Below are positions 28,330-45,734 of a stretch of 64,000 nucleotides of DNA, in pieces (the first letter of the stretch is position 1; every line of letters begins with the position of its first letter). A model generated the notes under the pieces. That model saw only the letters and a program-made list of their open reading frames with translations, made no database searches and was not told the DNA's origin. A program made the position numbers and the translations under genes. Source of the stretch: Pseudoalteromonas nigrifaciens (lineage in GTDB: Bacteria; Pseudomonadota; Gammaproteobacteria; Enterobacterales; Alteromonadaceae); contig NZ_CP011036.1 of NCBI RefSeq assembly GCF_002221505.1, positions 2,046,001 to 2,110,000 on the forward strand. The letters are read 5' to 3'.

Positions 28330-29823
28330 GTGCCGGGAACACGAATCACTGATCAGCAGGTCACTATTTATATGAAACATAGAAAACGTAATAGCCAAGT
28401 TATCGCGGCTGCGAAAGCAGGTATTTCTGAACGTTCAGCAAGGCGCATTGATAAACTGGATGAGCAGCCATTGTCTAATAAACGCCAATGGCGAACGCGT
28501 ATAGATCCACTTGAGTCTATCTGGGACAGTATTGTTGTCCCTCTACTTCAAGGTGATGCAACGTTAACTCCGGTGGGAATTTTTGATCACCTTTGCGAGT
28601 TTCACACCGACAAATTTAACCCTAGCTCACGGCGTACATTAGAGCGTCGAATTCACAAATGGCGAGCACTGTATGGCTCAAGCAAAGAGGTCGTATTCCT
28701 GCAAACACACGAGTATGGCCTATTAGGCATGTGTGATTTTACACATGTGAAGTCACCCGTTACCATTGCTAGTGAACCCTTAAAGCATATGTTGTTTCAT
28801 TATCGTATGCCCGCCAGTGGCTGGGCTTATGCCCAAGTGATTTACGGCGGTGAAAGCTTTGCTGCTTTTTCTGATGGCGTGCAAAACGCATTTAAAGCAG
28901 CCGGCGGTGTGCCTAAAGAAGTGCGTACAGACAGTCTGAGTGCCGCCTATCGTAATCACACTAATGATAACGATTTTACAGAGCGCTTTAATGAATTAGT
29001 CACCCATTATGGCTTTAAAGCGACCCGCAATAACCGTGGTATTGCGCATGAAAATGGGGCTATTGAGAGCCCTCATGGGCATCTTAAATCGCAACTGGAG
29101 CAAGCATTAAAAATCCGTGGTAGTTATGACTTTCAGACAAGAGAAGTCTATGAATCGTTTGTTGCCGACATTGTAGCTCGCCGTAATCGCCGTGTAAGTG
29201 ATAAATACGCAGTAGAGCAGCGACAATTACATGCTTTACCACGGACGATGAGCGTCAATTACACCGAGCATTATCTAACGGTGTCACGTACGAGTACTAT
29301 TTCGTTGAAACGTGTTACCTATAGCGTCCCGTCACGCCTTATTGGTAGCCGATTACTTGTTCGTTTATATGACAACCGTTTAGAGCTGCGCTATGGCAGC
29401 GATTTAGTTCAAACGTTAGCGCGTGTCTATGCTTCTAAAGGATGCCGTGCACGTAATATTAGTTACTTGCATGTTATTGACGCACTGGTTAAAAAACCAT
29501 TGGCATTTCGCTACTCACAACTACGTGACGACTTACTTCCAAGCGACAATTACAAAGCTATTTGGGAATACGTTAATGCCCACCTTTTAGCGGATGAAGC
29601 GAGCTATTACATGGTGAAATTGCTCCATTTAGCGAAGCAAAGTGGGTGTGAACGTCAATTAGGACGATTTGTAGCAGCGTCAATTACTCAGCGACAATTA
29701 CCGGCCATCCGAGAATGTGAAGCGCAATTTTTAGTGATTGCATCAAACATACCCACAATAACAATAAAGCAACACAGCTTGAGCGCTTATAGCAGCATGA
29801 TACCGGGAGGTCTACATGGATAA
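28330..29823 (+). CDS. istA: IstA transposase of IS21 family
   Basis: This 497-residue DDE transposase has an N-terminal helix-turn-helix (AAAKAGISERSARRIDKL), an rve-type catalytic core starting near LLGMCDFTHVK (first Asp), then VRTDSLSAAY (second Asp) and ENGAIESPHGHLK (Glu), and a C-terminal beta domain. The start is GTG at 28330 with a strong GGAGGAG ribosome-binding site at 28317-28323. It overlaps istB by 8 bases, the usual IS21 arrangement. Confidence 0.95.
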   Translation: MPGTRITDQQVTIYMKHRKRNSQVIAAAKAGISERSARRIDKLDEQPLSNKRQWRTRIDPLESIWDSIVVPLLQGDATLTPVGIFDHLCEFHTDKFNPSSRRTLERRIHKWRALYGSSKEVVFLQTHEYGLLGMCDFTHVKSPVTIASEPLKHMLFHYRMPASGWAYAQVIYGGESFAAFSDGVQNAFKAAGGVPKEVRTDSLSAAYRNHTNDNDFTERFNELVTHYGFKATRNNRGIAHENGAIESPHGHLKSQLEQALKIRGSYDFQTREVYESFVADIVARRNRRVSDKYAVEQRQLHALPRTMSVNYTEHYLTVSRTSTISLKRVTYSVPSRLIGSRLLVRLYDNRLELRYGSDLVQTLARVYASKGCRARNISYLHVIDALVKKPLAFRYSQLRDDLLPSDNYKAIWEYVNAHLLADEASYYMVKLLHLAKQSGCERQLGRFVAASITQRQLPAIRECEAQFLVIASNIPTITIKQHSLSAYSSMIPGGLHG

Positions 29824-30568
29824 CTTCACGGCCTCGTTACCTTTAATGCTGAAACAATTAAAGCTTAGCACCATGCTTCAACAGTGGAATACTCTGGGCA
29901 AAAAAGCGATAGAAGAACAATGGAGCCCACAGCAATACTTATCTGAGCTGTGCCATATTGAACTTGCGACACGCGATGACAAACGCCTTCAGCGGCTTTT
30001 AAAAGATGCAAAATTGCCCGTGGGTAAACACCTTAGCAGCTTCGACTTTACCCTTGTTGATGGGGTTAGTAAGCCCCTTGTTGCTGATTTAATAAATCAG
30101 CCGGATTGGTTGAAGTACGGTGGCAATATATTGTTATTTGGCGCCAGTGGTCTTGGTAAAACGCATATCGCCAGTAGCATCGGTTATGGCCTTATCGAGC
30201 AGGGCCATAAAGTTAAGTTTGTTGCCGCGTCAGCGATTGTTCAACAACTCCAGCAAGCAAAGCGACATTTACGCTTGCAAGACGAACTTGTAAAGCTCGA
30301 TAAATACAGCTTATTAATCGTTGATGACGTTGGTTACGTTCGAAAAACGGAACAGGAAACGAGTGTGCTGTTTGAATTGATAGCCCATCGCTATGAGCGA
30401 CACAGCATGATCATCACATCAAACAAATCATTCGAACAATGGGATGAACTATTTGATGATTCAACGATGACTGTCGCGGCAATCGATCGCTTGGTTCATC
30501 ATGCAACGATTATTCATTGCGAAGGTGAAAGTTACCGACGCAAAACAGCGCTCAATAAGAGCAAATAA
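29816..30568 (+). CDS. istB: IstB ATP-binding helper protein of IS21 family
   Basis: This 250-residue AAA+ ATPase has Walker A GASGLGKTH and Walker B LLIVDDVGYV, with the usual N-terminal helical domain. IstB selects the target site and activates IstA. Its ATG lies inside the end of istA. Length is normal for the family. Confidence 0.95.
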   Translation: MDNFTASLPLMLKQLKLSTMLQQWNTLGKKAIEEQWSPQQYLSELCHIELATRDDKRLQRLLKDAKLPVGKHLSSFDFTLVDGVSKPLVADLINQPDWLKYGGNILLFGASGLGKTHIASSIGYGLIEQGHKVKFVAASAIVQQLQQAKRHLRLQDELVKLDKYSLLIVDDVGYVRKTEQETSVLFELIAHRYERHSMIITSNKSFEQWDELFDDSTMTVAAIDRLVHHATIIHCEGESYRRKTALNKSK

Positions 30569-30577
30569 AATTCGGTG

Positions 30578-31099
30578 TCAACCGGCCAAGATAATTGACG
30601 CGGAACCGGCCAAGTTAATTGACGCTAGATAGCTTGTAGCTAATTCAGGATCGATGAGTGTATGTATTGTTTTAAAATAATTACCAATAAAATTAGCAAG
30701 AAGATTTAATGATTTTGAATCTTGCTTATACTCATATGATTTAATAAGTAATACATAGAATGGTATCTCATTGCACCAACCATTTTTATATGTGCTGCGA
30801 TTAAAACTCTCTCTTGAGCTTGCATCTAGCTCAACTCCATACTCATTAAAGGCATAATAAATATACTCAGGAAGACATAGCTCACTTTTAGTAAACTCCC
30901 ATAGCTTCTGTGACGCATCATTCATCCTTTTTAATAATAAAAAAACTTGTGATAAACCACTCAAATCTTCAGGGGCACTTATGCGAGAAGTAAAATCATC
31001 AAAGTCAGATTTTATATCCTCGATACTGATTTCCAAGTTTACCCCTTTACAATACAACTCAATATGCTCAAGAAGCTTAACTTTTAGCGTACCCGTCAT
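30578..31099 (-). pseudogene. 5' part of the IS21-interrupted recombinase gene
   Basis: The frame gives 173 residues. The first 156 belong to the original gene; the last 17 (after ELATS) are read from the IS21 terminus and end at a stop there. The natural continuation is the 674-codon frame on the other side of the insertion sequence (26160-28184). The start codon overlaps the stop of the upstream 192-residue gene by four bases (ATGA), so the ancestral cassette was a coupled operon. This N-terminal domain is helical, with no motif that I recognise. Confidence 0.85.
30631..30638. repeat. IS21 target-site duplication, right copy (AGCTTGTA)
   Basis: Second copy of the 8-bp target repeat that borders the IS21 element; see the left copy at 28229-28236. 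Confidence 0.9.
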
Positions 31100-31674
31100 A
31101 ATTTAATCACTTTTGTACTAATTTTAAGCCATTTACATAATTCTGTTTTTGTTTTAATAGCTGGAAATAAGGTACGCCATTCTGTTGAATCAATTACTGG
31201 TTGTTCACCTTTGAATAAGCCAATAAGTAACTCTGAGATTAAAGGGCCGGATGCATTAAAGTACTGCTTAAAAAGTAGTCGAACAATATCATTAAGAAAA
31301 ATTAAACGTCTAAGATCGGGTGTCGGACGATTAGGAAGGATCAAACATGGGACAAGTTGATTTGACTGTTCTTGAAGTCGACAAACTTTATGAAATGTAA
31401 ATAAGCCAGAGACTAGTTTTAACTTTTCATTATCAGTTTTATATCCAATTATCGGGGCTTGATAAGCATCAAGTTTCCAAGTAGTAATTGTATCAAAGCT
31501 GTCGTTTGAACTTGGTTTTAAAAACGAAAACAAATTTATATTACTAATTAAATTATCTATGGTTTTTTCAAGGGTAATATTTTCTGCGACAATATACTCA
31601 AATGTAGACCTGTCTAATAATTCATCGATCTTTTTTAATTTGCCTTCAACATTCTCATCAATCATATTCAGCAC
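31096..31674 (-). CDS. 192-residue protein, first gene of recombinase cassette
   Basis: This predicted soluble helical protein has no motif I recognise. It begins with GTG at 31674, or ATG at 31665 three codons later; neither has a strong ribosome-binding site. It overlaps the next gene by four bases. Its place at the head of a cassette with two giant tyrosine recombinases suggests an accessory role in recombination, for example directing or regulating strand exchange, but this is position-based. The gene begins about 190 bp from the tRNA-Val fragment that probably marks the element end. Confidence 0.65.
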   Translation of the reverse strand: MLNMIDENVEGKLKKIDELLDRSTFEYIVAENITLEKTIDNLISNINLFSFLKPSSNDSFDTITTWKLDAYQAPIIGYKTDNEKLKLVSGLFTFHKVCRLQEQSNQLVPCLILPNRPTPDLRRLIFLNDIVRLLFKQYFNASGPLISELLIGLFKGEQPVIDSTEWRTLFPAIKTKTELCKWLKISTKVIKL

Positions 31675-32242: not shown

Positions 32243-33160
32243 TTAAAGAATAACAATCGATGGCTTAAGCACTTTACCTGTTTTAGTATTTATACAACCG
32301 TGAAATAAAACACTTTGAATATCGCCACTCATATTTTCACTTTTATTGTGTTTAATATGAGATTGGGTATCAAATTTATCCCCAGCTTTAACTCGCTGCA
32401 GTTCAAACATCGGATAAGCAAGCTTAAAGCGGTTAAACAACAACATAAACAGTTGGATAATACGCTCTTGGTCTGAGTTATTTCCTTTAACCACCTCCGC
32501 TTTAATATAATCCCACAAGTTAAAAATATATTTTTCTTGAATACCACAAGCAACTAGCCCTTTTACGCTAGGATCGGTAAATATATTATCCGTTGATAAT
32601 TTGGTTTGAGTAGAAAGAGCATCATAGATTTCTTTAATTCGAAGATCTTCTTCAAAGTTATCGCGGTAGTATGCTATTTTTTTTTCTTGTTCTTCATATT
32701 TCGCTTTAATAGAATCATATTCTGTCTTTAAATATTTATAATTGCTAGAAGCCTCCGACAAGCTCTGTTTGTTTTGATTAAGGTTAGAAGTTACTGTAGA
32801 TAAGTTAGCTTCTAAGCCTGACTTATCTTGGTTTAGTGATAAAATAGCTTCGTTGCTTTTATTTAAAGCGGAGTCTTTCAATCCGAGTAATGACTTAAGT
32901 TTTATAATAATTTCTTTCATTTCTTCATTCTCACTTCTTAATTTTATTACCTCAATATCTAAATTATTACCTTCTTCTTGTAGTTCCTGAGTTAAAGTAT
33001 TGTCATTGAGAGCTAAGTCTTCAACAACTGTTGTTTCTAAAGTCCTGTTAACTGCCGGTTTCAACATTATTTCACGCACTTTTCCTTGGACTTCACTGTC
33101 TTCCAAAAGTAATAAAAAACTCTGTTTTAAAGTTTGATCTCCAATTAATTGCTCATCCAT
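32243..33160 (-). CDS. Coiled-coil protein with GrpE-like C-terminus
   Basis: This 305-residue protein has a long predicted coiled coil at about residues 60-170 and a C-terminal module (about 255-305) that resembles the GrpE beta domain: KAGDKFDTQSH, then GDIQSVLFHGC, then TGKVLKPSIVIL. GrpE has the same pattern of G-x-x-FDP-x-x-H, a short beta hairpin and a closing RPAxVxV strand, and it also dimerises through a long helix. GrpE is the nucleotide exchange factor of Hsp70. The presence of an Hsp70-like ATPase at the head of the same operon makes this reading attractive. It is the last gene and overlaps the 158-residue gene by one base. Confidence 0.6.
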   Translation of the reverse strand: MDEQLIGDQTLKQSFLLLLEDSEVQGKVREIMLKPAVNRTLETTVVEDLALNDNTLTQELQEEGNNLDIEVIKLRSENEEMKEIIIKLKSLLGLKDSALNKSNEAILSLNQDKSGLEANLSTVTSNLNQNKQSLSEASSNYKYLKTEYDSIKAKYEEQEKKIAYYRDNFEEDLRIKEIYDALSTQTKLSTDNIFTDPSVKGLVACGIQEKYIFNLWDYIKAEVVKGNNSDQERIIQLFMLLFNRFKLAYPMFELQRVKAGDKFDTQSHIKHNKSENMSGDIQSVLFHGCINTKTGKVLKPSIVIL

Positions 33161-33636
33161 TATTGATTGCCTCTTTTAAAATTCCTTGTCGCCTTTCGGT
33201 AATAATTCTGTAAAACATTACTATTGCCAGCATCTACTTCTTCAACAGCTGGCTTAACGGTTTTTTCATCAACACCAAGTTGATCATTTTTAACCGCACT
33301 GCTTACTTTAAGCCTTGTTGAAATATCTGGATAAAGAAAAACTTGAGAACAAGCAGTGTCAATACCATTAATAATCCACTGAAGATCTTGTTCACTAGTA
33401 ATAAACTTGTCAGCGATTGAAATACTCGTATCAACATTAAAAGAGTTAATATCTGTATCAATAACAAAGGCCAGCTTTTCAGTCGTAGTATATTCAATTT
33501 TATTTTTAAATTGTTGCCAGTATAAATTAACCGAAATCCACTCTTCTCCGGCAAAGCGAATAATCTCTAAGTCACCATCTATAATGCGACTCGTTTTAGC
33601 CATGTTATTTTTTACTTGAATATAAAAATCAGCCAT
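33160..33636 (-). CDS. 158-residue protein of unknown function
   Basis: This predicted alpha/beta protein begins MADFYIQVKNNMAKTSRIID and ends in a basic tail (YYRKATRNFKRGNQ). There is no signal peptide, membrane helix or J-domain HPD motif. It abuts the stop of the second A/S-rich paralogue and overlaps the GrpE-like gene by one base, so it is part of the same operon. I do not recognise the family. It could be a scaffold or adaptor of the proposed Hsp70/HerA machine; this is inferred from context only. Confidence 0.65.
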   Translation of the reverse strand: MADFYIQVKNNMAKTSRIIDGDLEIIRFAGEEWISVNLYWQQFKNKIEYTTTEKLAFVIDTDINSFNVDTSISIADKFITSEQDLQWIINGIDTACSQVFLYPDISTRLKVSSAVKNDQLGVDEKTVKPAVEEVDAGNSNVLQNYYRKATRNFKRGNQ

Positions 33637-34287
33637 TTACTTACTTAACCCCATAACCTTGCTTTCAATCTGTTCAATAGATAATTCAGGCTCTAGTTTT
33701 TGGTAAGCATCAACTAAGGCATTACTATGCTTCGTTGTTTCATCAAGAGAGAGCTCATCATTAAGGTAAAGCTCGTAGTTATCTAGCTTTAATTCCTTCT
33801 CTTTATAGGCCTTTATAGTCCCAATAATTTCATCAGTTTCTAGCTCTTGAGCCGCCACAGTCGCCATGAATTCAGGTGTCACTGTTGCATCTAGTTTTTC
33901 ATTAATTCCTTTTAAAGTAATAGAGGCACCAATAGAAGAACGTGCCAAAAGATCTTTTTCATCAAGGCTATCAAATTTTTCTTTATCAAAGACGACGTTA
34001 TTTCTCAGGTGATCAATATAATCATTAATTGAATCGAAATCTTCTGGCTTTTTATCACTTAACATAGCCCGCTCGCCTAGCTCTTCCATTGTATCTTCTG
34101 GGCTAATAATGCCTAAAGAAATGCCAACCGACTTAATGGCATCAGAAACTTTTGCCGCAAGGCTTATTCCTAAGCTGGCAATGCTTGTAGCAGCACTTGC
34201 AATGCTACTACCAATACTTGATACTGTGCTACTTATAACGCTACATGCACTGCTCACAGCACTACACAAACCACTCCAAAAACCCAT
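33637..34287 (-). CDS. Small Ala/Ser-rich protein, paralogue B
   Basis: This 216-residue protein has a first 65 residues rich in Ala, Ser, Ile and Gly (MGFWSGLCSAVSSACSVISS onward), with a repeating pattern that could form an amphipathic or membrane-inserting helix. The remainder is a helical domain homologous to the product of 37308-37934: compare MEELGERAMLSDKKPEDFDS with VNELGAKAISADKTPEDFNQ, and INDYIDHLRNNV with INDYIDYLRNDV. It is immediately upstream of the 158-residue gene. A membrane-acting role is a hypothesis from composition; function is unknown. Confidence 0.75.
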   Translation of the reverse strand: MGFWSGLCSAVSSACSVISSTVSSIGSSIASAATSIASLGISLAAKVSDAIKSVGISLGIISPEDTMEELGERAMLSDKKPEDFDSINDYIDHLRNNVVFDKEKFDSLDEKDLLARSSIGASITLKGINEKLDATVTPEFMATVAAQELETDEIIGTIKAYKEKELKLDNYELYLNDELSLDETTKHSNALVDAYQKLEPELSIEQIESKVMGLSK

Positions 34288-34297
34288 AGTTATTTCC

Positions 34298-36349
34298 TTA
34301 ATTAAAATTTAATTTTTTATTAGTACAAAGCGCATTTCTTTGTTCCATATTAAATGCAACTTCAGAGTTTTCGAGCACTGCATATAGGTAAAGCCTTAAA
34401 CAGTCGCTTCGACTATTTGACTGTTTTTCATTTTCGTCTGATTCTGCAGGTGTTTTATAACAAGTGGTAAGAATATATTGATGCATAAAACCAATACCAT
34501 AACCTTTAATATAGTTATGTAACTCAATGTTTGATTTATAATTTTTTACAGTGTTAATCCAAGCAAGCATTGGATTCCCTTGTAATATATCCTGAATAAC
34601 ATCTGCTGAAGGTTTACTTTCTAAAAGCTCTAACCCCTGAATTAAACCTAACTTGTAATTATCCGCATAATATTGAAGCGCTATGTTTCTAATTTCTTCA
34701 GGATCAACATCTGTTTCTTGTGTTGTACTAACAAACTCTTTTATTTGAACTTGAAGAGGTTTTGTCGTCCCCGAAGTAGATAAAATAACACGACCAGGTT
34801 CAAGATTTGATAAAAAGTCTTTTTGCTCATCCGATAGTGCCATTGTATTTCCAACGGCCTCTTTATCATCTTGTGCAAAAAGCTTATGAATAATTTTAGT
34901 ACTCGTATTTTTTAATACTTCTGGCGTTAGTTTATTCGGAATTTGATCAACAATAATCAACGACTCCCCATATTTTCGTACTTCAGCCAACATATCAGCA
35001 AATGTTTCAACCCCCTGTTTTTTATTGGAGCTATCCCCTGTCTCAAATTTAGATAGTAAACGGTGTGCTTCTTCAATCAGTGTAATATGTCTAAACTTCT
35101 CGCCGCGCTTTCTATATTCTTCGTGATTAGCACGTACGGCTTCATTTAGATTAGCTAAAACAAACCCCATAATTAAAGACTTTTCACTTGGGTTACGGAT
35201 CTCTTCAAGTTCTAAAATCACATTGCGTTGCGCTAAGTCTTTAAAGTTTATAGACCGCGGTGTATTTAACATTTGGCCTTTAGAGCCTATCAATAACCCT
35301 TGCAAGCGTGCTTTTATTGACCCTACATAATCCTGTTTTAACCTATCATCAAAGCCTTGCTCGTTTACAACAACCTCAGTCATATCAATCAATTCAGCTA
35401 GTGTAGGAAACGCATACACCCCTGGGGCAAATGGGTTTTCATAATAGCTATTTTTAGAATTAGCAATATTCCAACCTTTAGCCTCGTAGCAACGATAAAT
35501 AGCAGCTTCTATTAATTGTGGTATTGCAGCTTCCATATCAAAAGCTGATTCTATACTCGCCTTTATCATATCGACTCTAGAGGTAATATTTTCATGGGGG
35601 AAAAATTCAAAAGGGTTGAGTCTGAAAGGAGCAACATTATCGTTACCCAAGGTAAAAATTAAAATGCTGTTATCTTTTTTTGTTAGTACTCTGTATTCTG
35701 TTTTAGCTGGCTCAATGACTAAAAATGGCATTTGAGCTGAGTGTAATAATCGATGGCAAGTTGTCGTTTTACCACTTCCTGTAACACCTGCTATAAACGT
35801 ATGTTTGTCTAAGTCACGCTTATCTATACTCACCTCTGTTCTCTGCTTTAAACCACTTTTAACTAGGTTACCCAAAAAGAGTTTGTTTTCATCACTGGCC
35901 TGTTGCGTCATATTCAAGCCAAATTCAACTTCTTCTTTTAAAGTTAACCCCACAACTTCTTTCTGAGGTAGACCAGCAACAACACTCAATTCATTAGTAG
36001 AGAGCCAATTACATAAATATCGATTAAAAGGGTTTCTAGAAAGCAATAGATTTAATTGATGGATATTGTTATCACTTTTCGCAGCATCAGCACTTGCTGC
36101 TTGCAATGCAGGCAATTGGAAGTTTTTTAATGTAGAAATCTCATTTTTGACCGTCAATTTTTTAAGTTGTAAAGGTGACTTGTTCGCCTCTTCACCCGAA
36201 AAAATTGATTTTGCCGTATTTCCTAGCTTTAAAACACTAGCCTCAGAGTTAGATAATAAGTAAATATTAGACAGATAAAGCCCTTTATTTTTGCCTATTT
36301 GAATCCGTTTTAATAACACTTCATCAATATAACTAACCCAATCTTGCAC
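34298..36349 (-). CDS. HerA-like ATPase, C-terminal part after an in-frame stop
   Basis: The 683-residue frame carries a HerA/FtsK-type (DUF87) P-loop: Walker A GVTGSGKTTT at about 188-197, VIEPAKTEYR shortly after, and Walker B HITLIEEAHRLL near 422-433. The ATPase domain fills the C-terminal two thirds. It would start at GTG 36349, with only a poor ribosome-binding site. The 15 codons upstream are open and in the same frame as the preceding 303-codon gene, from which only one TAA (36395-36397) separates it. I infer one ancestral protein of about 1002 residues. HerA-like motors pump or unwind DNA and are frequent in anti-phage systems such as SIR2-HerA and DUF4297-HerA. Confidence 0.85.
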   Translation of the reverse strand: MQDWVSYIDEVLLKRIQIGKNKGLYLSNIYLLSNSEASVLKLGNTAKSIFSGEEANKSPLQLKKLTVKNEISTLKNFQLPALQAASADAAKSDNNIHQLNLLLSRNPFNRYLCNWLSTNELSVVAGLPQKEVVGLTLKEEVEFGLNMTQQASDENKLFLGNLVKSGLKQRTEVSIDKRDLDKHTFIAGVTGSGKTTTCHRLLHSAQMPFLVIEPAKTEYRVLTKKDNSILIFTLGNDNVAPFRLNPFEFFPHENITSRVDMIKASIESAFDMEAAIPQLIEAAIYRCYEAKGWNIANSKNSYYENPFAPGVYAFPTLAELIDMTEVVVNEQGFDDRLKQDYVGSIKARLQGLLIGSKGQMLNTPRSINFKDLAQRNVILELEEIRNPSEKSLIMGFVLANLNEAVRANHEEYRKRGEKFRHITLIEEAHRLLSKFETGDSSNKKQGVETFADMLAEVRKYGESLIIVDQIPNKLTPEVLKNTSTKIIHKLFAQDDKEAVGNTMALSDEQKDFLSNLEPGRVILSTSGTTKPLQVQIKEFVSTTQETDVDPEEIRNIALQYYADNYKLGLIQGLELLESKPSADVIQDILQGNPMLAWINTVKNYKSNIELHNYIKGYGIGFMHQYILTTCYKTPAESDENEKQSNSRSDCLRLYLYAVLENSEVAFNMEQRNALCTNKKLNFN

Positions 36350-36394
36350 TGTTTTATCTGAAAACTCACGAGATTCACTAGATGATGTACCTGT

Positions 36395-37306
36395 TTACTC
36401 CGATGTACTTGTTCCTCGGTTGCTGCCTGTAGCCGTAGACTCTGAGGTGCCTTTCGTTGTACTTTCACTACCATTTATATGGCGACTATGGTCGGTCTCA
36501 GAAAAGCCTGATGATGACTGCTTACTACCTTCGGTGTTATTTGTCCCTTTGTTTGTAGTAACCGATTTACCCGTATTAGTTGTTACAGATTTACCGTCAT
36601 TTTCACTCGTTGTTTTAGTGCTACTAGAACCTTCAGAGGCTCCTTCTGTCTTAGCCTTATTTGTTCCGTCTTGAATGCTTTTTTTAGATAAGGGCAGTAA
36701 TTTGTCATAAATTTCATGTAATTGCCCTTCAAGTTCGTTTACCTCAGTCAGTGAAAGAGGATCAGCCAAAACAGCTAAGCAAAACTTATCGCCACTCATT
36801 ATATCAACCAAACGGTCAACACCTTGAAACTGTTCGTTATCTTCATGAACGCTAGGGACGCCTTCAAGTTTAGAGACTTTAGAAAAAGCATCCACATCGC
36901 TTTTAACTTGCTTGCGTTCATATTTATCAAGCTTTTTAACTATGCTTCCTCTAAAATTCCCCTCTAAAGAGGGTTTTAAAATACTTTCGCCTATATCGTC
37001 AACATCAAGGGATAAATCTCCTTTGTAGCGCTTATCTTTTGCAATACCAAATAAAAACTTAACGCTTTCTCCATCGCCAATGAGTAAATAAAGAAAGAGA
37101 ATACCTTCAATATTTAACGAATTTAACACATTCTCAAACGCCTCTTTTCGAGGAAGTTCTTCATCAAAAGTTACTTCTTTTATGTGGTAAAGTGAAAATT
37201 CATGCTCAGCTAGTAAAAATGGCTTTTCAATAGCAGGTACTTGCACAGCTGCATCTATACTATTTGCTTTTAAAAGTTCAACTAACGATTTTTTTATCCT
37301 TGCCAT
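36395..37306 (-). CDS. N-terminal part of the split HerA-like protein (Ser/Thr/Gly-rich tail)
   Basis: This 303-residue product has an N-terminal alpha/beta domain (about 1-200) and then a low-complexity Ser/Thr/Gly/Asn linker that ends at GSNRGTSTSE and a TAA. The codons after the stop continue the same composition (TGTSSSESREFSDK) and lead in frame into the HerA-like ATPase. Proteins with this N-domain, low-complexity linker and HerA domain are usually one chain, so the stop is probably a nonsense mutation, a sequencing error or a read-through site. The start follows the paralogue A stop after one base (TAAAATG). Taken alone it would have no catalytic motif. Confidence 0.75.
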   Translation of the reverse strand: MARIKKSLVELLKANSIDAAVQVPAIEKPFLLAEHEFSLYHIKEVTFDEELPRKEAFENVLNSLNIEGILFLYLLIGDGESVKFLFGIAKDKRYKGDLSLDVDDIGESILKPSLEGNFRGSIVKKLDKYERKQVKSDVDAFSKVSKLEGVPSVHEDNEQFQGVDRLVDIMSGDKFCLAVLADPLSLTEVNELEGQLHEIYDKLLPLSKKSIQDGTNKAKTEGASEGSSSTKTTSENDGKSVTTNTGKSVTTNKGTNNTEGSKQSSSGFSETDHSRHINGSESTTKGTSESTATGSNRGTSTSE

Positions 37307-37307
37307 T

Positions 37308-37934
37308 TTAAAAATCCTTCATTACAGCTTGTTCGGCTTCTTGTTGAGTCATAGATGGTTCAGCATTTTTATAAGCGCTAACCAAGCAATCACTATGTTG
37401 TTTAGTTTCATTCAATTGGAGCTGGCCGTCACTGTAAGCTTCTATTTGCTCTAAATTTAAGCCACTGCCTGAATACGCTTTAATAATCTCGAAAACCACT
37501 TTCGAACCTACACCTATCTCTGCTACTTTATTTAAAAATGGTAAAGAAATGTTGGTACTCAATTCCCTGTTCAAGCCTTGCAATAAAATGGCACTCCCTA
37601 TCGCCTGACAGGCTAAAACATTTGTTGGTTCATCAGTTAGCGTTACTTCTGTCACATCATTTCGTAAGTAATCTATATAATCATTAATTTGATTAAAGTC
37701 TTCGGGTGTTTTATCAGCAGAAATAGCTTTAGCGCCTAGCTCATTAACGCTTTCATTCGGTTTAAGAACGCTCGAAGCAATGCTTAACTGCTCAATGACT
37801 TGAACAACCTTAGGTAAGTTTTCACCTACTGTTTTTAATACCATAGGTGCGGTTCTAACTAGCATTGGTCCTAGAGTCGAAGCTAATTTACTAACCGCTG
37901 TTATTATTGTAGGGATAAGTGTAGGTACTAACAT
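37308..37934 (-). CDS. Small protein, paralogue A of the Hsp70/HerA cluster
   Basis: This 208-residue protein has a hydrophobic N-terminus (MLVPTLIPTIITAVSKLAST onward, about 60 residues of Leu/Ile/Val/Pro/Ala) and a helical domain homologous to the product of 33637-34287. Both copies share the NELGxxAxxxDKxPEDF and INDYIDxLRN motifs and a C-terminal pattern of H-S-x-x-L-V-x-A-Y. It lies 15 bases after the Hsp70-like gene and one base before the HerA-like gene. Two related proteins bracketing the HerA gene suggest a heteromeric assembly or two targets of the motor. Membrane insertion is possible but unproven. Confidence 0.75.
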   Translation of the reverse strand: MLVPTLIPTIITAVSKLASTLGPMLVRTAPMVLKTVGENLPKVVQVIEQLSIASSVLKPNESVNELGAKAISADKTPEDFNQINDYIDYLRNDVTEVTLTDEPTNVLACQAIGSAILLQGLNRELSTNISLPFLNKVAEIGVGSKVVFEIIKAYSGSGLNLEQIEAYSDGQLQLNETKQHSDCLVSAYKNAEPSMTQQEAEQAVMKDF

Positions 37935-37949
37935 AATCTTCCTTAAATA

Positions 37950-40742
37950 TTATAGTTCTAGGCTTTGAGGTTCATTTAGATAAGAGTTATTTTTAATGTC
38001 CTGCTCATCAGCTATCACGTACTCAATCTGAGTAGGTGATATAATTCTTAAGTAAACCATTGCATCGTTATCGGTCATATCAAGCTTAATGGCTTTCTTT
38101 TTAATACCACTGTCAGCAATAGATACATTCCCTGTGCTTGATGTTGGTTGTTCAGTGTAAAATAATTCAAATTTTTGGTAGCCTGCATCAATAAACTCAA
38201 TCCACTGATTAAAATTACTTTCACGGTCTATTATTGGTTTAAATTTACCTTTACGGCTTTCGCCTAGGTAATATTTAAAACGAATATCATCATCGCCAAC
38301 ATTACGGTCAATCACCATTATGTTGCCGCCTTCTCGCGACTCAATTAAACCAAAAGCAACGCCTGTTTTACCTGTTGGTTTTTCAAGGTCAGTTTTATTA
38401 GCGCCCAGTGGCGCAAATAATTTAAAATGGCTATTACCACTAATATTGCCAATAGCTTCATCTTGTAAGTTAATATGCTTTTCAAATAATGCGTTAACAA
38501 AGCTAGACTGGCTTGAATTACCCGCTAAAAATATTTTTACATCATCAATATCATTTAATGATTCTTGAATATTGCTAAAAGCCAAACGCAGCGCATTAAA
38601 AAAGTTTTCAACGCCTCGCTCAATACGATCAGACAGTAACTGAGTTAGTTCATCCTCATCAACATCAAGCGCAAAAGCAGAATGCTGAATACCATTAATA
38701 TCTGTGAGCGTTATACTAAGCTCTCCAGAAGCATCAATCGAAAAGCCTTCGTGCTCTTCCCAAAATGGGCGCAAAGCAATACATAGTTTTTTTGTGTTGT
38801 TTCTTGCTTCTTGTGAATAACTTAGTAGTTGTTCGCTGCCTGCAAATTCATCTTTTTCAGGGTGTTTTTCAAATTGAATTCCCGCTTTTAAAAGTGCTAC
38901 TTTGTTTTTCTTAAATACTTCAAACGCTAATAATTCTAAAAGGTTTTCACCACCAAGAAATTGATCGCCACCAGCACCAAAGTGCTCTATTACGTAGTCA
39001 AAACGGCGCTCTTTTCCACTTTTAGCTTCTCTAAAAATGCCAAAATCAAAATCGGTTGTGCCGCCGCCAAAGTCAAAAACGCCATAAAAAATGCGTTCGT
39101 CACCTTCTGGGTCAAAGTCATGAGATTTAAAAGCAGTTAAGGCATAAGCAGCAGGTTCACTCGCCCCTTTTATAACGGTTAATTGCTCAATAGTGTCAGG
39201 CCCTAATTCAGCAGGAAGTGATTTTTTAAGCCCCTTTTCAAAGCTTTCTATAATTTTATCGCGCACTGGCATTTCGTAAGTCACAGGAAACGACAGTATG
39301 TACTCCATAAAAATGCCATTATTTAAGTTATTAATATATAAACCTAAATAATATGCATAAATTTCAATAGGGTTAAAGTCGTCAGTGCCAAGTTCTAAAA
39401 ATGGTGGTAAGTCAATCACTTTGCCTTTTTGTCCAACTACTTTTAGCTTTCTGTTTTTATCGCCCGCCCATTGTTTTATTTCATCTAAAAAGGTATTAAA
39501 TTGGCTAGACTCAGTGCCTTCCATTGCATTTTTGGCAGTATGGGAAATAGTTAAATCTTGCCAACGAGTATAAGGTTTATTGGCTTTTGCACCATAAGCA
39601 CTAATAAATGCGTCAAGGTCTCTAAATTCCATAATTGTTGGGTTTTCATAATGATGGGCTTGTATATCTGTACGTAAATCCCCAGTACCAACTCGCATAG
39701 GATGAATATTCACATTATCTTTTTGATACACTACAACGGTACTTTTTGTACCAAAATCTATTGCGACCACCCCATCGTTAATACTCGATTTTGGGTCTCG
39801 CGCAACCAGTGGAATGGGTAAATTAATACTTTGCTCATTAGTATTTTCAAGCTCATCGGTCCACAAAGACCAATGACCGAGCTCTGTATCTTCTACCATT
39901 TTTGAGTGATAAGGCGCTATGTCAGCGCGAATATGGTCTTCTAGTAGCAAGCTATTAGTTATTTTTTTTGTGACTAGCTGATTTAATATGTCAGTTTTAT
40001 CAGCTATTTTTTGAATTGCAGCTTTATTTTTGTAATTTAATGCAACAATTAATACTTTATATAACGCATTATCTTTGAGTTTAGTCGGGACAAAACCACT
40101 GTATATGGCATTAATGAATATCCCTTTCGCCCCCAATCCAGATATATCATGCTGGGATAGATAGGGTAGGCAGAAACCTTTTGAGGCATCAGTAAAGCAA
40201 TTTAAATCACAATCAAAACCCTGTACCTTATTATTTTTTTTATATAAATAGTAAGCATTTAATAAGAAACGACCTCGGTTAATATTAAAAGGTGCACTTA
40301 ATAACTTTGTTAACAACCTAAGAGTAGCGAGGTTCGGTACATCCCACTCATTAAAGTCATCTTTTAATTCAGAATTAATTATTTCTATTACATCACTATA
40401 TGATTGGCCCGAGTTAAAATATGAGTCTTTATTAAATGCTTTTACCTTAGCTTCACAAAGCATCCAAAAGCCTTTGGCTTGTTTATCAAAGTAAATATCA
40501 CCCCCAAAGTTTACCCAACGATCACTATTAAATTCACTTTCAACCTCATTAAAACAATTATTTAACGCATTAACTAATGGCCTATCTTCCCCCGTAACTG
40601 TTACATTATTTACAAAGGCAATAATTTCTTTTTGAATCATTTCTTCTAAATGCATAACCATTTTGTCAAATGATGCATCAACACCTATTTGTTGCGCATC
40701 TTTATTAGATAGCATCCATTGCGTAATTCTTTTTGTATCCAT
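37950..40742 (-). CDS. Hsp70-like (actin-fold) ATPase with long N-terminal extension
   Basis: This is a 930-residue protein. About 320 N-terminal residues have no motif I recognise. An Hsp70/actin-fold ATPase then starts: phosphate-1 motif DFGTKST near 329-335, YILSFPVTYE near 481-490, phosphate-2 motif DFGGGTTDF near 557-565, and adenosine motif FLAGNSSQSS near 738-747. A beta-rich tail of about 150 residues follows. It is not DnaK: the extension and divergent sequence set it apart. It is the first gene of a six-protein operon that also encodes a GrpE-like protein and a HerA-like NTPase. The ATG follows a 182-bp gap that contains the CAAGCTTG motif. Confidence 0.85.
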   Translation of the reverse strand: MDTKRITQWMLSNKDAQQIGVDASFDKMVMHLEEMIQKEIIAFVNNVTVTGEDRPLVNALNNCFNEVESEFNSDRWVNFGGDIYFDKQAKGFWMLCEAKVKAFNKDSYFNSGQSYSDVIEIINSELKDDFNEWDVPNLATLRLLTKLLSAPFNINRGRFLLNAYYLYKKNNKVQGFDCDLNCFTDASKGFCLPYLSQHDISGLGAKGIFINAIYSGFVPTKLKDNALYKVLIVALNYKNKAAIQKIADKTDILNQLVTKKITNSLLLEDHIRADIAPYHSKMVEDTELGHWSLWTDELENTNEQSINLPIPLVARDPKSSINDGVVAIDFGTKSTVVVYQKDNVNIHPMRVGTGDLRTDIQAHHYENPTIMEFRDLDAFISAYGAKANKPYTRWQDLTISHTAKNAMEGTESSQFNTFLDEIKQWAGDKNRKLKVVGQKGKVIDLPPFLELGTDDFNPIEIYAYYLGLYINNLNNGIFMEYILSFPVTYEMPVRDKIIESFEKGLKKSLPAELGPDTIEQLTVIKGASEPAAYALTAFKSHDFDPEGDERIFYGVFDFGGGTTDFDFGIFREAKSGKERRFDYVIEHFGAGGDQFLGGENLLELLAFEVFKKNKVALLKAGIQFEKHPEKDEFAGSEQLLSYSQEARNNTKKLCIALRPFWEEHEGFSIDASGELSITLTDINGIQHSAFALDVDEDELTQLLSDRIERGVENFFNALRLAFSNIQESLNDIDDVKIFLAGNSSQSSFVNALFEKHINLQDEAIGNISGNSHFKLFAPLGANKTDLEKPTGKTGVAFGLIESREGGNIMVIDRNVGDDDIRFKYYLGESRKGKFKPIIDRESNFNQWIEFIDAGYQKFELFYTEQPTSSTGNVSIADSGIKKKAIKLDMTDNDAMVYLRIISPTQIEYVIADEQDIKNNSYLNEPQSLEL

Positions 40743-40924: not shown

Positions 40925-43900
40925 TCATAACCCCATTGACGACATTAGCTCATGCTCACTCACAACTTCAGGCATTACTACCGCATCTCTTAGCATGGTT
41001 TTCTTTGCGAGTAGTTTGTCTAGGTTCACATCAAACGAATCATATTCTGGGTGTAAAAGGCAGGGTAAGTGAATAAACACAGGTTTTTCTTGACCAATAC
41101 GATAAACGCGGTCTGTAGCTTGAGCCTCTTTTGCGGGGTTCCAGTGGCGTTCTAAATGAACTACATGGTTTGCACCAACAACCGTTAAGCCAACGCCTGC
41201 CGCTACAGGCGACATAATTATAACGTTAAAGCCTTCTTCTGCTTCAAAGTCAGTGATCATCCCTTTACGAGACAGCTGATCTTTTTTTGTAGCAATCGCT
41301 TTGCTGTCTCCGTTAATAACATGAATGTTTAGCTCATAAATTTTATCTAAGCATATTTTAAGAACAGCCTGGAGCTTTTTAGTTGTCGCAAAAATAATTA
41401 CCTTCTCTTGTTTGTTTTTTATATCTGACAATATATCTAACAACATGCGTAACTTTTCAGACTCTTGTAAATTACGCTGTGCCTCTTTGGCATTATTAGG
41501 TGGCTGTTTAAAAACCTCATCAAGCCTTGGATGCAAACTAACAGCCCTTAATTGCTGTAATACTGTTAAAGCATGGCCGCCGCCCTGCTCTTTTGCTTTC
41601 TCCTTTCTATAATCTTCAACAATTTGGTTGTAGCCAAGCAACTGACCTCCGGTCATATTACGAGCTAACTCTGGAGCAAATGCCATATTGTCAGCCAAGT
41701 TTTTATGAATACCTGTTTTTATTGTTTTAGTAGGCATTCCGGTTAGCTCGTCTTCCTTGGTTCGGCGTAACATAAACTGCCCAGCAGCATTACGTAAATC
41801 GTTACCAACTTCTAAACGCACCTCTGCTTTTTCTTCCTCATTAGCACTACTTATTGGCTTAATCCAGCGCTCTCTAAAATAGCCCCAATCGCCTAATAGC
41901 CCTGGTTGCGCTGTATCCATTAAACACCAAAACTCGCTTAAACTATTTTCAACAGGAGTACCTGTAGCTAGTAATTTAAAATCAGCTTTTAGTGCTTTAG
42001 CTGCACGTGTTGCTTGAGTATTTGGGTTTTTAATATTTTGAGCTTCATCAAATATTACAATTCCCCAGTCAATAACACATAAAGAAAATTGGTAATCCCG
42101 TAACGTTTGATAAGTCGTAATAACAACACGTCTATCCATATCTAAACGCTTTGTTGCTGCATCAGCCCCAACATGCAAAGCGTAACGAATAGATTTATGA
42201 TCAGCATGCGAATCATTCATTACCGTCGCAAGCTGCATAGACTCTCGTTCAGCCCCTTGAACTTTAAACTCTTTTAAATCCCTTGATGACTGCAGGACTT
42301 TAATATCTCTAAATGGAGAATCTTTAAAAGTAGCTTCAACCTCTTGTTCCCAGTTTTCCAATAAACTAAGTGGAGCGACTATTAATATGGGCTTTTCGGA
42401 TTTATTGCTTTGCTGCTGCATTGACAAGTACTCAGCCAGCATAACTAACGTCATATAGGTTTTACCAAGCCCCATATCATCGGCTAGTAAAGCCCCTTGC
42501 ACTCTATACATATCATCATGGTTATCTAATTGAGCTGACTTAAGTAACGACATCATCCAGCTAATGCCAGACTCTTGATGAGGGAAAGGTGTTCGCGCTA
42601 AATTAGTTCTGTCAAAACTAATAGATCGGTCTAACTGCGCAACTTTATTTACAATGTCTTGATTATGTTCTTCCGCATCTTTTAGTAACAAGGAGACTTG
42701 CTCTTTACGAACCAGAGTATCTTCAACTCCAGGCGTATCTGAGTCATTAGAAGGGTTTGCTAAATTTTCTCTTACCTCTGCGAGTGTTTCACTAACTCGC
42801 TGCTCATCGCGTATGTCAATTAACTCATCATCAACAACAACACTATCTGCATTTTGCCCTTTAGCTTGCTGGTAACTTTGCTCAAACGATACAACATCGT
42901 CCTCGCATTCAAGCAACTTAACTAAGCGCTCTGGTGGCTCACTGTCTGTATTTGTCGAAAACCAGCCATTACTGCCATCGCTGTCTTGACCAAAAGGAAT
43001 GTGTACCATTTTGCCAATACCAGCAACTCTCAGAGAAAATCCAAGATCGAGGTTTAAAATAGATGCATCTAAAAAAGCTGAAGGGGTTTTAATAAATTCT
43101 GCGACTTTGTGTGCAGGAATGGTTCTATTTTGCAGTACTTCTTTAACAGCTTGTTTTTTATCGTCAGTAAGTAAAACAATGCGATCTTTTATTCGCATTA
43201 CTTGCCCGTCGCCCTGTAACTGAGCTAAGCGATTTTGTAAGTCTTCAGATGAAGAGCCATCACCAAAGCTTGGGCTAAGCTCTAGGCTACCATCAACTTT
43301 TTGATTTGCTGTTACTGTAATATGTTGTGGTTGTACTAAATCAAATTTATCAAAATGTTTTAAATCTAGTTTTAACCCATCTTTAACTGCTTGCTGTAAC
43401 TTAGCAACTGCCAACACATTATTTAGCTCAGTGCGGTCATCGGGCGTAAGCGACGAATGTTTTTCTACGGCTAAAACAGCATTAAGCTGCTCAGGCGTCA
43501 TTAAATATTGTGTTTGTTCACTAAAAAAAAGTATCGGTCCTTTTCTTTTTACTGGATATTTTTGCTGCTCAAATTTTGCAAACAACTGCAGCGAAAAGCT
43601 ACTTTTAGTTGTTCTACCTTGAATATCAACGTCAAAGTCGTTATTAAAAAAAGGCGGTAACCCTAAAACGTCTGCATCTTCTGGGTCTAATAAACATGCT
43701 TGCTCACTATCAAGCCTAAAGCCATTAGGCAGTGTTTCAGCAATATGTCTTTCTTCAAGCATTTTAAGTACAACATGCTGAATAAGCTGGCTACCTCCGC
43801 CCTCACCTTTGTTTAGGCAATGAAATGTAGCTTCATTAGTGGCAAAATTAACGCCATACGAGTCATATACTAAGGAGTATTTATCGTCCGCTAAATGACT

Positions 43901-43948
43901 ATTTTTATTATTAGGCAAAAGCCCTTTTATCAAACTAACAAGTGACAT
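40925..43948 (-). CDS. zorD: ZorD, SNF2-family helicase of type I Zorya
   Basis: This 1007-residue SF2 (SNF2/Rad54-like) ATPase has Walker A ADDMGLGKTYMT, the DEAQ box IVIFDEAQNIKN, motif III LATGTPVEN and motif VI-like DRVYRIGQEKPVFIH. An N-terminal domain of about 430 residues precedes it. In type I Zorya, ZorD with ZorC is thought to act on invading DNA after the ZorAB membrane motor senses infection; ZorD has ATPase and nuclease-linked activities in studied systems. It is the last of the zorABCD set, 56 bases after zorC. Motifs are complete. Confidence 0.92.
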   Translation of the reverse strand: MSLVSLIKGLLPNNKNSHLADDKYSLVYDSYGVNFATNEATFHCLNKGEGGGSQLIQHVVLKMLEERHIAETLPNGFRLDSEQACLLDPEDADVLGLPPFFNNDFDVDIQGRTTKSSFSLQLFAKFEQQKYPVKRKGPILFFSEQTQYLMTPEQLNAVLAVEKHSSLTPDDRTELNNVLAVAKLQQAVKDGLKLDLKHFDKFDLVQPQHITVTANQKVDGSLELSPSFGDGSSSEDLQNRLAQLQGDGQVMRIKDRIVLLTDDKKQAVKEVLQNRTIPAHKVAEFIKTPSAFLDASILNLDLGFSLRVAGIGKMVHIPFGQDSDGSNGWFSTNTDSEPPERLVKLLECEDDVVSFEQSYQQAKGQNADSVVVDDELIDIRDEQRVSETLAEVRENLANPSNDSDTPGVEDTLVRKEQVSLLLKDAEEHNQDIVNKVAQLDRSISFDRTNLARTPFPHQESGISWMMSLLKSAQLDNHDDMYRVQGALLADDMGLGKTYMTLVMLAEYLSMQQQSNKSEKPILIVAPLSLLENWEQEVEATFKDSPFRDIKVLQSSRDLKEFKVQGAERESMQLATVMNDSHADHKSIRYALHVGADAATKRLDMDRRVVITTYQTLRDYQFSLCVIDWGIVIFDEAQNIKNPNTQATRAAKALKADFKLLATGTPVENSLSEFWCLMDTAQPGLLGDWGYFRERWIKPISSANEEEKAEVRLEVGNDLRNAAGQFMLRRTKEDELTGMPTKTIKTGIHKNLADNMAFAPELARNMTGGQLLGYNQIVEDYRKEKAKEQGGGHALTVLQQLRAVSLHPRLDEVFKQPPNNAKEAQRNLQESEKLRMLLDILSDIKNKQEKVIIFATTKKLQAVLKICLDKIYELNIHVINGDSKAIATKKDQLSRKGMITDFEAEEGFNVIIMSPVAAGVGLTVVGANHVVHLERHWNPAKEAQATDRVYRIGQEKPVFIHLPCLLHPEYDSFDVNLDKLLAKKTMLRDAVVMPEVVSEHELMSSMGL

Positions 43949-44004
43949 GTATTTTTAAATCCCTTTTTAATATTCCTAAAGTTCATGCTTTTCTCTGAAG
44001 TGGG

Positions 44005-45732
44005 CTACAGCGAACGGCTCCATAACTCTTCAGAGTTTAAGGTGACCCTACCTTTTGTACGTAAAGAGTAAAGTGCAAAATTTACCTGGTGAACACTTTT
44101 GCGAAGCTCAAACTCCTGCGCTAAGATATTAGTAATTGAGTTACTATTTATAGGTTGATGTACATCTAGTACATGCAAAATTAAAGACTCCAGCGATTGA
44201 GTGGCTTCCGTTTTTGCTTCTACTTCTATTTCTACTTTTTCTTTTCTTCCTAAAACAGGTAATCCATAACGATTTACATATCTCCTGTATTCGTCTTTAT
44301 AAAAGAGCTTTTCTAAATCGAGCTCAACACCATTTTGAGTTAAAAAATCAATCGCATTTTTTTGCCAAGAAGTCGGCGAGTGTTGAATTGGCATTAAATC
44401 GCCTTTTAGATAGTTCTTTTTATATTCTTGTGGAAAGCTATTTGTTAAAGCAAAATGGTTTAACTCACCCAAAGAGTAATCATTCAACTTATTACTCGGA
44501 AGGCCCATATAAATCCATAGCTTAAAGTTATGCGATCCTTCAATGATATGAAAATCACCGCAATCTAAATAAATAATGGAAGTTTGAGCCATTCCTCTAA
44601 GCTTTATATAGCTGGTTGTTAAACTCTTTCCTAGCACTCGCTTAACTGTATGCTCCGCTTGGTTTCCAAGCATTAGCCGTGCATTTCGCACAAAGCCATG
44701 TTCATACAGCCCTTCTAAAAAGCGCTTACGTGCAGGGAACATTCTATTTAACGCTTCATCACCGGTGTAATTTGCGTACTCTTCAATAGCGCCTAAAAAT
44801 AACCGCAAGTCTTCTTTGGCAAGCCAGCTTGTCACTGCTTTTACTCTATTCTCACCAATGGGCTTCCACCACTGGCGGTAATTTGTAGCTGTATTAGCAA
44901 TACGCGGATCGCCAGCTAAATTCAGTACAAAGTTTTGCCATATTTCACTTGGTGCACCAGCAGAGCGGTCAATAATAATTTCAAGCGCTATGTGCCCTAT
45001 TCGTTTACCTTCTTCAAAAGGCATTGTGGCAACATCTTGTTTTAATAGCTCATGCAGAACATCATGCTGCTCACCAACAGGAATTTCTTTTAGTGTATCC
45101 AGGTAATATTGCGCGTGACAAATATCTAAAAAACGCCCTTGCGGCAGCTCGTTTAAGCGTAGTTTTTTTAATTGTTCGTTTAAGTCTAAGTGGTTTTGTT
45201 TGGCAAGGTTAACCAAAGCCTTAGGAGCTGTTAAATCAAACAGCCATTTGGCTTGATTAAGCACCGACAAAATTGTGTCACTTGTATTTTTTCGATCTTT
45301 TAAGCGTTGCTCTATTTGCTGTTTAAGCCACTGCGTTAATCTGTTAAAAATATTACCATCAACCAGTGCATCAAAATAACGATAAACTAACGAAATTAAA
45401 TTCATTAACGACGACATACCAAGTTTGGGATGTTTAGCTTGAATGTAATCTATTGTTTCTTCGTTTAATGAGTTTTTTCTTACTTCTTCTTTATCAATCC
45501 ATAACTGAGTTAAAACACGTACACCTTTTCGCTTAATTAAAATTTGTTTAAGCTTTTCTTTTTGATCGTACATAACGTAGCGATTAATCTGTTGCTCAAG
45601 GGCTTTATATTCTTCACCTTGCCCTGCACCGTCGGCAATTTTCTTTGTTTGTGAAGTCAGGCTATTCCACTGCTGTGAAAATCGCTCCCAGCTAAATTCT
45701 GAAAGCTGAGGAATAGGAGGTAAAAGCAACAT
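44005..45732 (-). CDS. zorC: ZorC, EH-signature protein of type I Zorya
   Basis: This 575-residue protein is recognised by its place between zorB and zorD and by the EH_Signature-type region around residues 300-450 (GDFHIIEGSHNFKLWIYMGL). It is mostly helical, with a basic N-terminal half. In type I Zorya, ZorC binds DNA and cooperates with ZorD. It starts two bases after the zorB stop. Length matches known ZorC proteins (about 560). Confidence 0.88.
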   Translation of the reverse strand: MLLLPPIPQLSEFSWERFSQQWNSLTSQTKKIADGAGQGEEYKALEQQINRYVMYDQKEKLKQILIKRKGVRVLTQLWIDKEEVRKNSLNEETIDYIQAKHPKLGMSSLMNLISLVYRYFDALVDGNIFNRLTQWLKQQIEQRLKDRKNTSDTILSVLNQAKWLFDLTAPKALVNLAKQNHLDLNEQLKKLRLNELPQGRFLDICHAQYYLDTLKEIPVGEQHDVLHELLKQDVATMPFEEGKRIGHIALEIIIDRSAGAPSEIWQNFVLNLAGDPRIANTATNYRQWWKPIGENRVKAVTSWLAKEDLRLFLGAIEEYANYTGDEALNRMFPARKRFLEGLYEHGFVRNARLMLGNQAEHTVKRVLGKSLTTSYIKLRGMAQTSIIYLDCGDFHIIEGSHNFKLWIYMGLPSNKLNDYSLGELNHFALTNSFPQEYKKNYLKGDLMPIQHSPTSWQKNAIDFLTQNGVELDLEKLFYKDEYRRYVNRYGLPVLGRKEKVEIEVEAKTEATQSLESLILHVLDVHQPINSNSITNILAQEFELRKSVHQVNFALYSLRTKGRVTLNSEELWSRSL

Positions 45733-45734
45733 AA

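Follow-up and report, generated by a model that had tools for sequence, protein, structure and literature searches.

A candidate conflict operon joining an Hsp70-like ATPase to a VirB4-type motor in Pseudoalteromonas nigrifaciens

We have analysed a stretch of 64,000 nucleotides from Pseudoalteromonas nigrifaciens (contig NZ_CP011036.1, positions 2,046,001 to 2,110,000; hereafter the window), in which the minus-strand block 32243-40742 holds seven open reading frames (ORFs) that make up a six-gene operon. It encodes an Hsp70-like ATPase, a GrpE-like protein, a HerA/VirB4-like motor, two small proteins of one family (A and B, together AB) and a protein of the S158 family. By comparison with other genomes we observed that the Hsp70-like and GrpE-like proteins, the motor, one or two AB proteins and S158 form a co-inherited set. 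We tentatively propose, at somewhat less than an even chance, that the operon is a stand-alone conflict system whose VirB4-type motor, working with AB at the membrane, is governed by an Hsp70/GrpE-like switch; judged from the neighbouring genes alone, its target is probably phage.

Layout and recurrence of the gene set

The sequence-only reading of this DNA had described a tight minus-strand operon of six proteins, which the ORF coordinates and the short gaps bear out. Starting from the gene of the Hsp70-like, actin-fold ATPase (37950..40742, 930 amino acids (aa)), the minus strand carries in turn small protein A (37308..37934, 208 aa), the motor gene, small protein B (33637..34287, 216 aa), S158 (33160..33636, 158 aa) and a GrpE-like coiled-coil protein (32243..33160, 305 aa). 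The motor gene consists of an N-terminal part running to an in-frame stop (36395..37306, 303 aa) and a C-terminal part with the FtsK/HerA ATPase core (34298..36349, 683 aa). In gene order the intergenic gaps are 15, 1, 10, 0 and -1 bases, with 45 bases at the motor stop.

A seed alignment of four Hsp70-like proteins was used to scan bacterial and archaeal genomes, and 351 relatives were confirmed. The best 80 of these 351 were kept and gave 78 loci (L005-L082), on which the counts below are made, leaving aside L001, L004, two plasmid loci (L002 and L003) and the slice of the window. In these loci ORFs were predicted with a simple script, and a profile for each of six families was refined by iteration. 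The alignments hold 23 of the 28 motor members (A5, omitting the two fragments of L016, L025, L069 and L002), 30 of the 31 AB members plus A and B of the window (A2), all 26 S158 members found among the fetched loci (A3), 40 of 68 GrpE-like members (A4) and 29 of 99 Hsp70-like members (A6), the last three each with the window protein added.

A GrpE-like gene is present in 63 of the 78 loci, the motor in 26, S158 in 26 and AB in 22; one more AB, in L052, was missed by the ORF rule and found by hand. In the 26 motor loci the labelled genes all lie on the Hsp70 strand, and a GrpE-like gene is found in 24 and S158 in 23. AB accompanies the motor in 23 of the 23 motor loci whose contig continues past it; the three motor loci lacking AB (L025, L027 and L069) end within the motor gene or 97 bases beyond. 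The 52 loci devoid of a motor contain no AB, and S158 occurs in three of them. The families of the operon therefore do co-occur elsewhere, where they act as one unit of inheritance.

The order Hsp70-A-motor-B-S158-GrpE is kept in eight loci, L005-L012 (L008 carries two Hsp70s), from Photobacterium, Pseudoalteromonas, Vibrio, Aliivibrio and Ferrimonas, belonging to Vibrionaceae, Pseudoalteromonadaceae and Ferrimonadaceae; since the same six genes recur there in the same order, the window operon is not a product of chance. GrpE-Hsp70-motor-AB-S158 is the order in L022, L024, L029, L030, L037, L046, L049, L050 and L055, with small departures from it in L035, L052, L053 and L080, and motor-AB-S158-GrpE-Hsp70-Hsp70 that in L016 and L020. 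On the Acinetobacter plasmid L002 the order is different and S158 is undetectable. Altogether, the motor-bearing loci among those fetched come from Pseudomonadota, Campylobacterota, Bacillota and Lentisphaerota.

Pairwise distances between the Hsp70-like proteins are correlated with the corresponding distances in each other family (r 0.85-0.94, with none of 2000 permutations as high), a correlation part of which can stem from shared ancestry of the hosts. On a tree of the Hsp70-like proteins (built by a quick method, without bootstrap) the presence of the motor changes at least 15 times, 10 of these changes being forced by starred branches, so that the cassette has been repeatedly gained or lost, though some short contigs are surely mislabelled as pair-only through truncation.

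A search starting from the motor gave an independent view. Among 398 genomes of the phylum to which the window belongs, four (source genome counted) have the motor at E <= 1e-40; AB adjoins it in all four, and Hsp70 is present in both that offer enough sequence (the window and L099), L085 and L086 being cut. In the phylum of the L035 Clostridium it was found at that threshold in 8 of 398 genomes (that genome counted): the full set is present in L035, L115 and L116 (S158 faint in L116), the short contig of L117 shows an AB-like gene and no Hsp70, and L118, L119, L120 and L121 have neither AB nor Hsp70. Six of 18 genomes reached via chosen loci hold a motor at E <= 1e-20, and in Helicobacter labacensis a separate contig (L102) carries a GrpE-Hsp70-motor-AB-S158 set. 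The Hsp70-like gene itself is present in a single copy in the source genome, as judged from a whole-genome search, and in none of 98 other genomes searched, including 59 congeners.

Two side observations concern the Hsp70-like genes. In Pseudoflavonifractor sp. 60 the Hsp70-like gene (L078) and a motor gene (L103) lie on different contigs. In L053 (1-9228) and L057 the genes upstream of the GrpE/Hsp70-like pair include some that, judged by eye, resemble components of phage tails or baseplates, and one for a protein of 871-876 aa that matches the Hsp70 core faintly (E 0.01 and 0.18).

The encoded proteins

The actin-fold motifs claimed from the sequence are legible in the 930-aa protein, in which a divergent N-terminal region (about residues 1-260) precedes a nucleotide-binding core (about 315-800) and a C-terminal domain. 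With a profile of the core, DnaK ranked first among 1,073 proteins (E 9.7e-8). The window protein itself matches no Pfam family above cut-off, HSP70 included, and PF00012 was matched in one of the 30 rows of A6 (E 0.0012). In two Acinetobacter relatives the N-terminus resembles Lcl_C/DUF1566 (E 1.8e-6 and 1e-6, short of the curated cut-off), a likeness seen in none of the 30 rows of A6 at E <= 0.01.

The hallmark of GrpE is a coiled coil ending in a beta-domain with a C-terminal signature. When a profile of the C-terminal part of the 305-aa protein was used, the genome's own GrpE came first of 1,073 proteins, yet with an E-value of only 0.012, and hhalign comparison with GrpE gave E 2e-4 and a probability of 46%. 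The GrpE-like end of the sequence-only reading is weakly supported. PF01025 was matched in 5 of 41 GrpE-like rows (best E 9.4e-5), and unrelated coiled-coil families hit as many rows or more.

The C-terminal part of the motor matches PF01935 (E 1.7e-6), in agreement with the HerA P-loop noted earlier, as well as the PADLOC mad8 (E 8.8e-26) and HerA models, and scores 42.5% against an Acinetobacter motor over 550 aa. It contains GVTGSGKTT and LIEEAHR, which we take to be the Walker A and Walker B motifs. The N-terminal part aligns with the intact Acinetobacter motor (1047 aa) over residues 52-326 of the latter and comprises the N-domain and a portion of a Ser-rich linker. Both N-domain and core are VirB4-like, a VirB4 N-domain and a RecA-like motor being found together. 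Of the HerA-like DNA motor first suggested, the FtsK/HerA core stands, but the N-domain is of another kind, and with a VirB4-like N-domain and core secretion is as likely a function as DNA pumping.

A genome search gave one in-frame stop in an otherwise open motor frame, the two parts being in the same frame, as the sequence-only reading had it. In 25 full-length relatives (23 of A5, L002 and the plasmid locus L122 described below) the gene is open through the linker, so intact copies exist. The premature stop implies that the window copy is either dead or functional as two chains. The motor of L016 is shortened and in two pieces. Further broken copies were noticed: the L105 motor and the Hsp70 genes of L115 and L003 are each in two ORFs, and the Hsp70 fragments of L099 are separated by another ORF.

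Proteins A and B share 36.5% identity over 167 aa (E 1.5e-34), which confirms their proposed paralogy. The first 57 residues of B are hydrophobic and Ser/Ala-rich (mean hydropathy +1.05, against -0.52 for the remainder) and are followed by a helical domain; its AlphaFold2 model is made entirely of helices, with a mean predicted local distance difference test score (pLDDT) of 90.8. B gave no PDB or viral match at E <= 0.001, and neither A nor B matched WXG100 in Pfam. S158, for which no sequence match was found in the PDB, has a consensus with an LxxYYRxKT-like C-terminal tail.

Related motors and named systems

On a Photobacterium damselae plasmid (L122; NZ_CP076735.1, 1-21499) a motor and an AB homologue follow AAA and DUF2357 genes, in surroundings that include kinase, phosphatase and csm6 genes. 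This motor is 44% identical to that of L005 over 80% (1031 bits), and the AB homologue matches at E 1e-41. No match at E <= 1 was obtained between the DUF2357 protein and the Hsp70 profile, nor with the S158 and GrpE profiles in the locus. A motor tree (quick method, long-branch root) places L122 within the Hsp70-type motors (100*). Read from its annotated genes, L122 appears to be CoCoNuT-like, of Type III-A. A third kind of extension described for Type III-A CoCoNuTs consists of an ATPase that is both EccE3-like and VirB4-like and of a small helical protein, and Hsp70-like domains are reported within such systems (PMC11090510). Because the motor and AB of our operon are homologous to the pair beside a CoCoNuT-like locus, they probably represent this optional extension. 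The lack of a match between the L122 DUF2357 protein and the Hsp70 profile speaks against a complete correspondence. The operon differs in having neither a McrB-like GTPase nor a McrC/DUF2357 homologue (none by Pfam or PADLOC in its seven ORFs and the two ORFs downstream), and in adding separate Hsp70-like, GrpE-like and S158 proteins.

Other named systems share smaller parts with the operon. In the GAP1-N2 GTPase-centric conflict systems, Hsp70 and GrpE genes occur in one predicted conflict operon, but our operon has no GTPase, FNIII or DnaJ match in Pfam, and the passages on these systems tell of no HerA motor (PMC7159879). VirB4/TrwK of type IV secretion resembles the window motor in N-domain and motor fold; the window family differs by a Ser-rich linker of about 100 residues, and no VirB3, VirB6, VirB8-10 or other type IV secretion gene was matched by Pfam among the operon ORFs. 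With the HerA-type defence systems (SIR2-HerA, DUF4297-HerA, DndH and Mad8 of MADS) the operon has the FtsK/HerA core in common, but its ORFs matched no SIR2, DUF4297, Dnd or other MADS protein, mad8, i.e. the motor, being the sole mad model hit. Type VII-like FtsK/WXG100 cassettes likewise combine a motor of the FtsK/HerA superfamily with adjoining small helical proteins, and one adjoins Hsp70-GrpE in L003, but AB is twice as long and has no WXG100 match. No operon protein matched the Zorya models of PADLOC.

The earlier statement that no named system has this gene set therefore holds in so far as no system in the PADLOC scan covers it, and falls short in that the motor-AB half is probably in print. 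For the stand-alone six-gene set no description was found in the literature searched.

More distant motors occur in another setting. After the motor (350-455 bits), L104, L118, L120 and L121 carry LHH or WHH/colicin-DNase domains (Pfam), and the plasmids L123 and L124 carry genes annotated as HNH endonuclease, with SMI1/KNR4 annotated in L123 and a dynamin family in L124; dynamin-like and SMI1-like genes were recognised by eye or with our own profile in L104, L106, L118, L120 and L121. These look like toxin-immunity or secretion loci. On the tree the motors of DNase-linked loci separate from those of the Hsp70 type (100*). The loci of these distant motors, which often include a WYL gene as well, are chromosomal in Bacillota or lie on plasmids of Exiguobacterium and Lactococcus. 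In L105 (6015-14874) and L117 (1375-9440), some genes beyond the motor, there are small proteins whose N-termini are very rich in Cys, together with a protein of 413-435 aa that resembles by eye a peptide-maturation enzyme. On the viral contig L132 (5876-7822) a distant motor is preceded by a different ATPase of the actin fold (E 0.002-0.004 to MreB and Hsp70), a second coupling of these two types of enzyme.

Three Helicobacter loci, L003 (5100-13810), L039 and L043, have Hsp70-GrpE followed by WHH-nuclease, SMI1/KNR4, 77-aa and FtsK genes, which from WHH to FtsK are 65 to 83% alike across the three; a WXG100-like gene was seen in L003 only (E 4.8e-5, below cut-off). It is as if the motor-AB cassette had been replaced there by a type VII-like one.

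Genomic setting and rival readings

In the window, the operon lies between a complete type I Zorya system (ZorA-D, 40925-48667) upstream and an IS21 gene pair (28330-30568) downstream, which agrees with the Zorya and mobile-junction flanks seen earlier. The two ORFs between the operon and the IS21 pair (173 and 192 aa, 30578-31674) gave no match in Pfam, PADLOC or NCBIfam. Farther out, past the IS21 pair, there is a type I BREX set (PglZ, PglX, BrxC, BrxB and BrxA). Within this BREX operon, an Avs2-matching protein (3497-7573, 1358 aa, E 4.7e-86) adjoins pglZ and a HEC-05-type protein (12572-14314, E 7.9e-221) occupies the pglX/brxC interval.

Several loci elsewhere also adjoin restriction, CARF, WYL or HEPN genes. 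L006, which comes from Pseudoalteromonas lipolytica (NZ_LJTC01000008.1), is bordered by type I restriction genes and L008 by genes for a type I methylase and for specificity; near L011 there is a fragment of a specificity gene. Two genes of L006 match HEC-06, Orf5 and SspE, and a CARF/Csx1-like gene (PF09623) is found at both L006 and L008. A WYL gene lies ahead of the operon in L002, L007, L009, L010, L011 and L020, and behind it in L050. The operon is followed by a HEPN-type gene, so labelled from the L002 record and matched in Pfam at only E 0.024, in L002 and, on the opposite strand, in L007, L009 (short) and L010.

In the mechanism that we propose, the Hsp70-like protein would act as a switch driven by nucleotide and would sense infection through its variable N-terminal region, and the GrpE-like protein would reset the switch. 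The motor would form a hexamer at the inner membrane and push AB into or across it, with S158 as a possible adaptor; the infected cell would then halt growth or suffer membrane damage. The WYL gene next to some copies may hold the operon silent, and the HEPN, CARF or restriction neighbours may be accessory effectors.

A number of observations weigh against this proposal. The C-terminal domain of the Hsp70-like protein (after residue 800) has no profile kinship with DnaK, and the kinship of the 305-aa protein with GrpE is weak. The model of the whole motor has a mean pLDDT of 69.5, and its full-length fit to TrwK a root-mean-square deviation of 13.4 Å. Membrane insertion of AB is inferred from hydropathy, and the model is that of a confident, compact helical protein. 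No motor accompanies the Hsp70-like gene in 52 of the 78 loci, many of them Bacillota with a GrpE-Hsp70 pair only; 26 of these 52 extend at least 4.5 kb on each side, so that in at least those the motor is truly absent, and one clade made up of pairs only contains ten Domibacillus/Lysinibacillus/Peribacillus-type copies. The replacement of cassettes in Helicobacter is not a clean one, the L043 genome also holding the motor set on another contig (L102). As for the setting, flank proteins were chosen by eye, and no defence genes were noticed by eye in the flanks of L005 and L012. The excess of WYL genes in motor loci (6 of 26, against 1 of 52 others by profile; Fisher p 0.005) is a soft result because the profile was seeded from the same loci, the genomes being related too.

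Whether the window copy works at all is, in our estimate, an even question: the stop may have inactivated the motor and left the operon a functionless remnant here, which would be compatible with any reading of the intact copies. The single in-frame stop is missing from the 25 full-length relatives and a second broken motor exists in L016, but the other five genes are open and the stop falls within a flexible linker, so that the protein might work even when split there. It is very unlikely, on the other hand, that the Hsp70-GrpE pair is an ordinary proteostasis pair which recruited a motor cassette and lies in the island incidentally. Pair-only loci are indeed common in Bacillota and stable in the Peribacillus group; against this, the Hsp70-like gene is absent from all 59 other congeners searched and the presence of the module changes as often on the Hsp70 tree as reported above.

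An export machine, in which AB and perhaps further substrates would be secreted by the VirB4-type motor in a type VII or type IV manner and act as antibacterial proteins, with Hsp70/GrpE as dedicated export chaperones, also seems unlikely. It would account for the VirB4-like motor fold, for the LHH, WHH/colicin-DNase or HNH genes that distant motor relatives precede, for the SMI1-like and dynamin-like genes there and for the coupling of Hsp70-GrpE with WHH-nuclease, SMI1 and FtsK genes in Helicobacter. However, no immunity gene or recognisable toxin domain was noticed in the inspected Hsp70-type loci, and the operon ORFs include no further type IV secretion gene. The sequence-only reading had named secretion loci among homologues as a possible refutation; the DNase-linked relatives touch on this point, but the Hsp70-type motors sit apart from them on the tree (100*). 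We consider quite unlikely a DNA-capture system, in which a HerA-like hexamer, its assembly governed by Hsp70/GrpE, would act on invading DNA as a pump in the way proposed for DndFGH and HerA-anchored systems: the operon ORFs have no nuclease match in Pfam or PADLOC, the N-domain of the motor is VirB4-like and AB shows no kinship with DNA-binding proteins.

Returning to the conflict system gated by an Hsp70/GrpE-like switch, its extension to a widespread immune machine is doubtful. In such a machine the pair would gate a VirB4 motor driving AB into the membrane of the infected cell, and the output end would be exchangeable: motor and AB in the majority of motor loci, FtsK and DNase with a WXG100-like protein in Helicobacter, and the same motor and AB attached to CoCoNuT systems of the McrBC type. 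Since motor-bearing loci span four phyla, working homologues should exist in laboratory-friendly strains. If the proposal is true, bacteria would possess an immune or conflict machine driven by a private Hsp70/GrpE cycle, and a secretion-type ATPase with small membrane proteins would serve as an interchangeable output module of several systems. The unexplained ATPase extension of CoCoNuT would then gain a testable role, and a chaperone-controlled membrane effector would join the known defence mechanisms.

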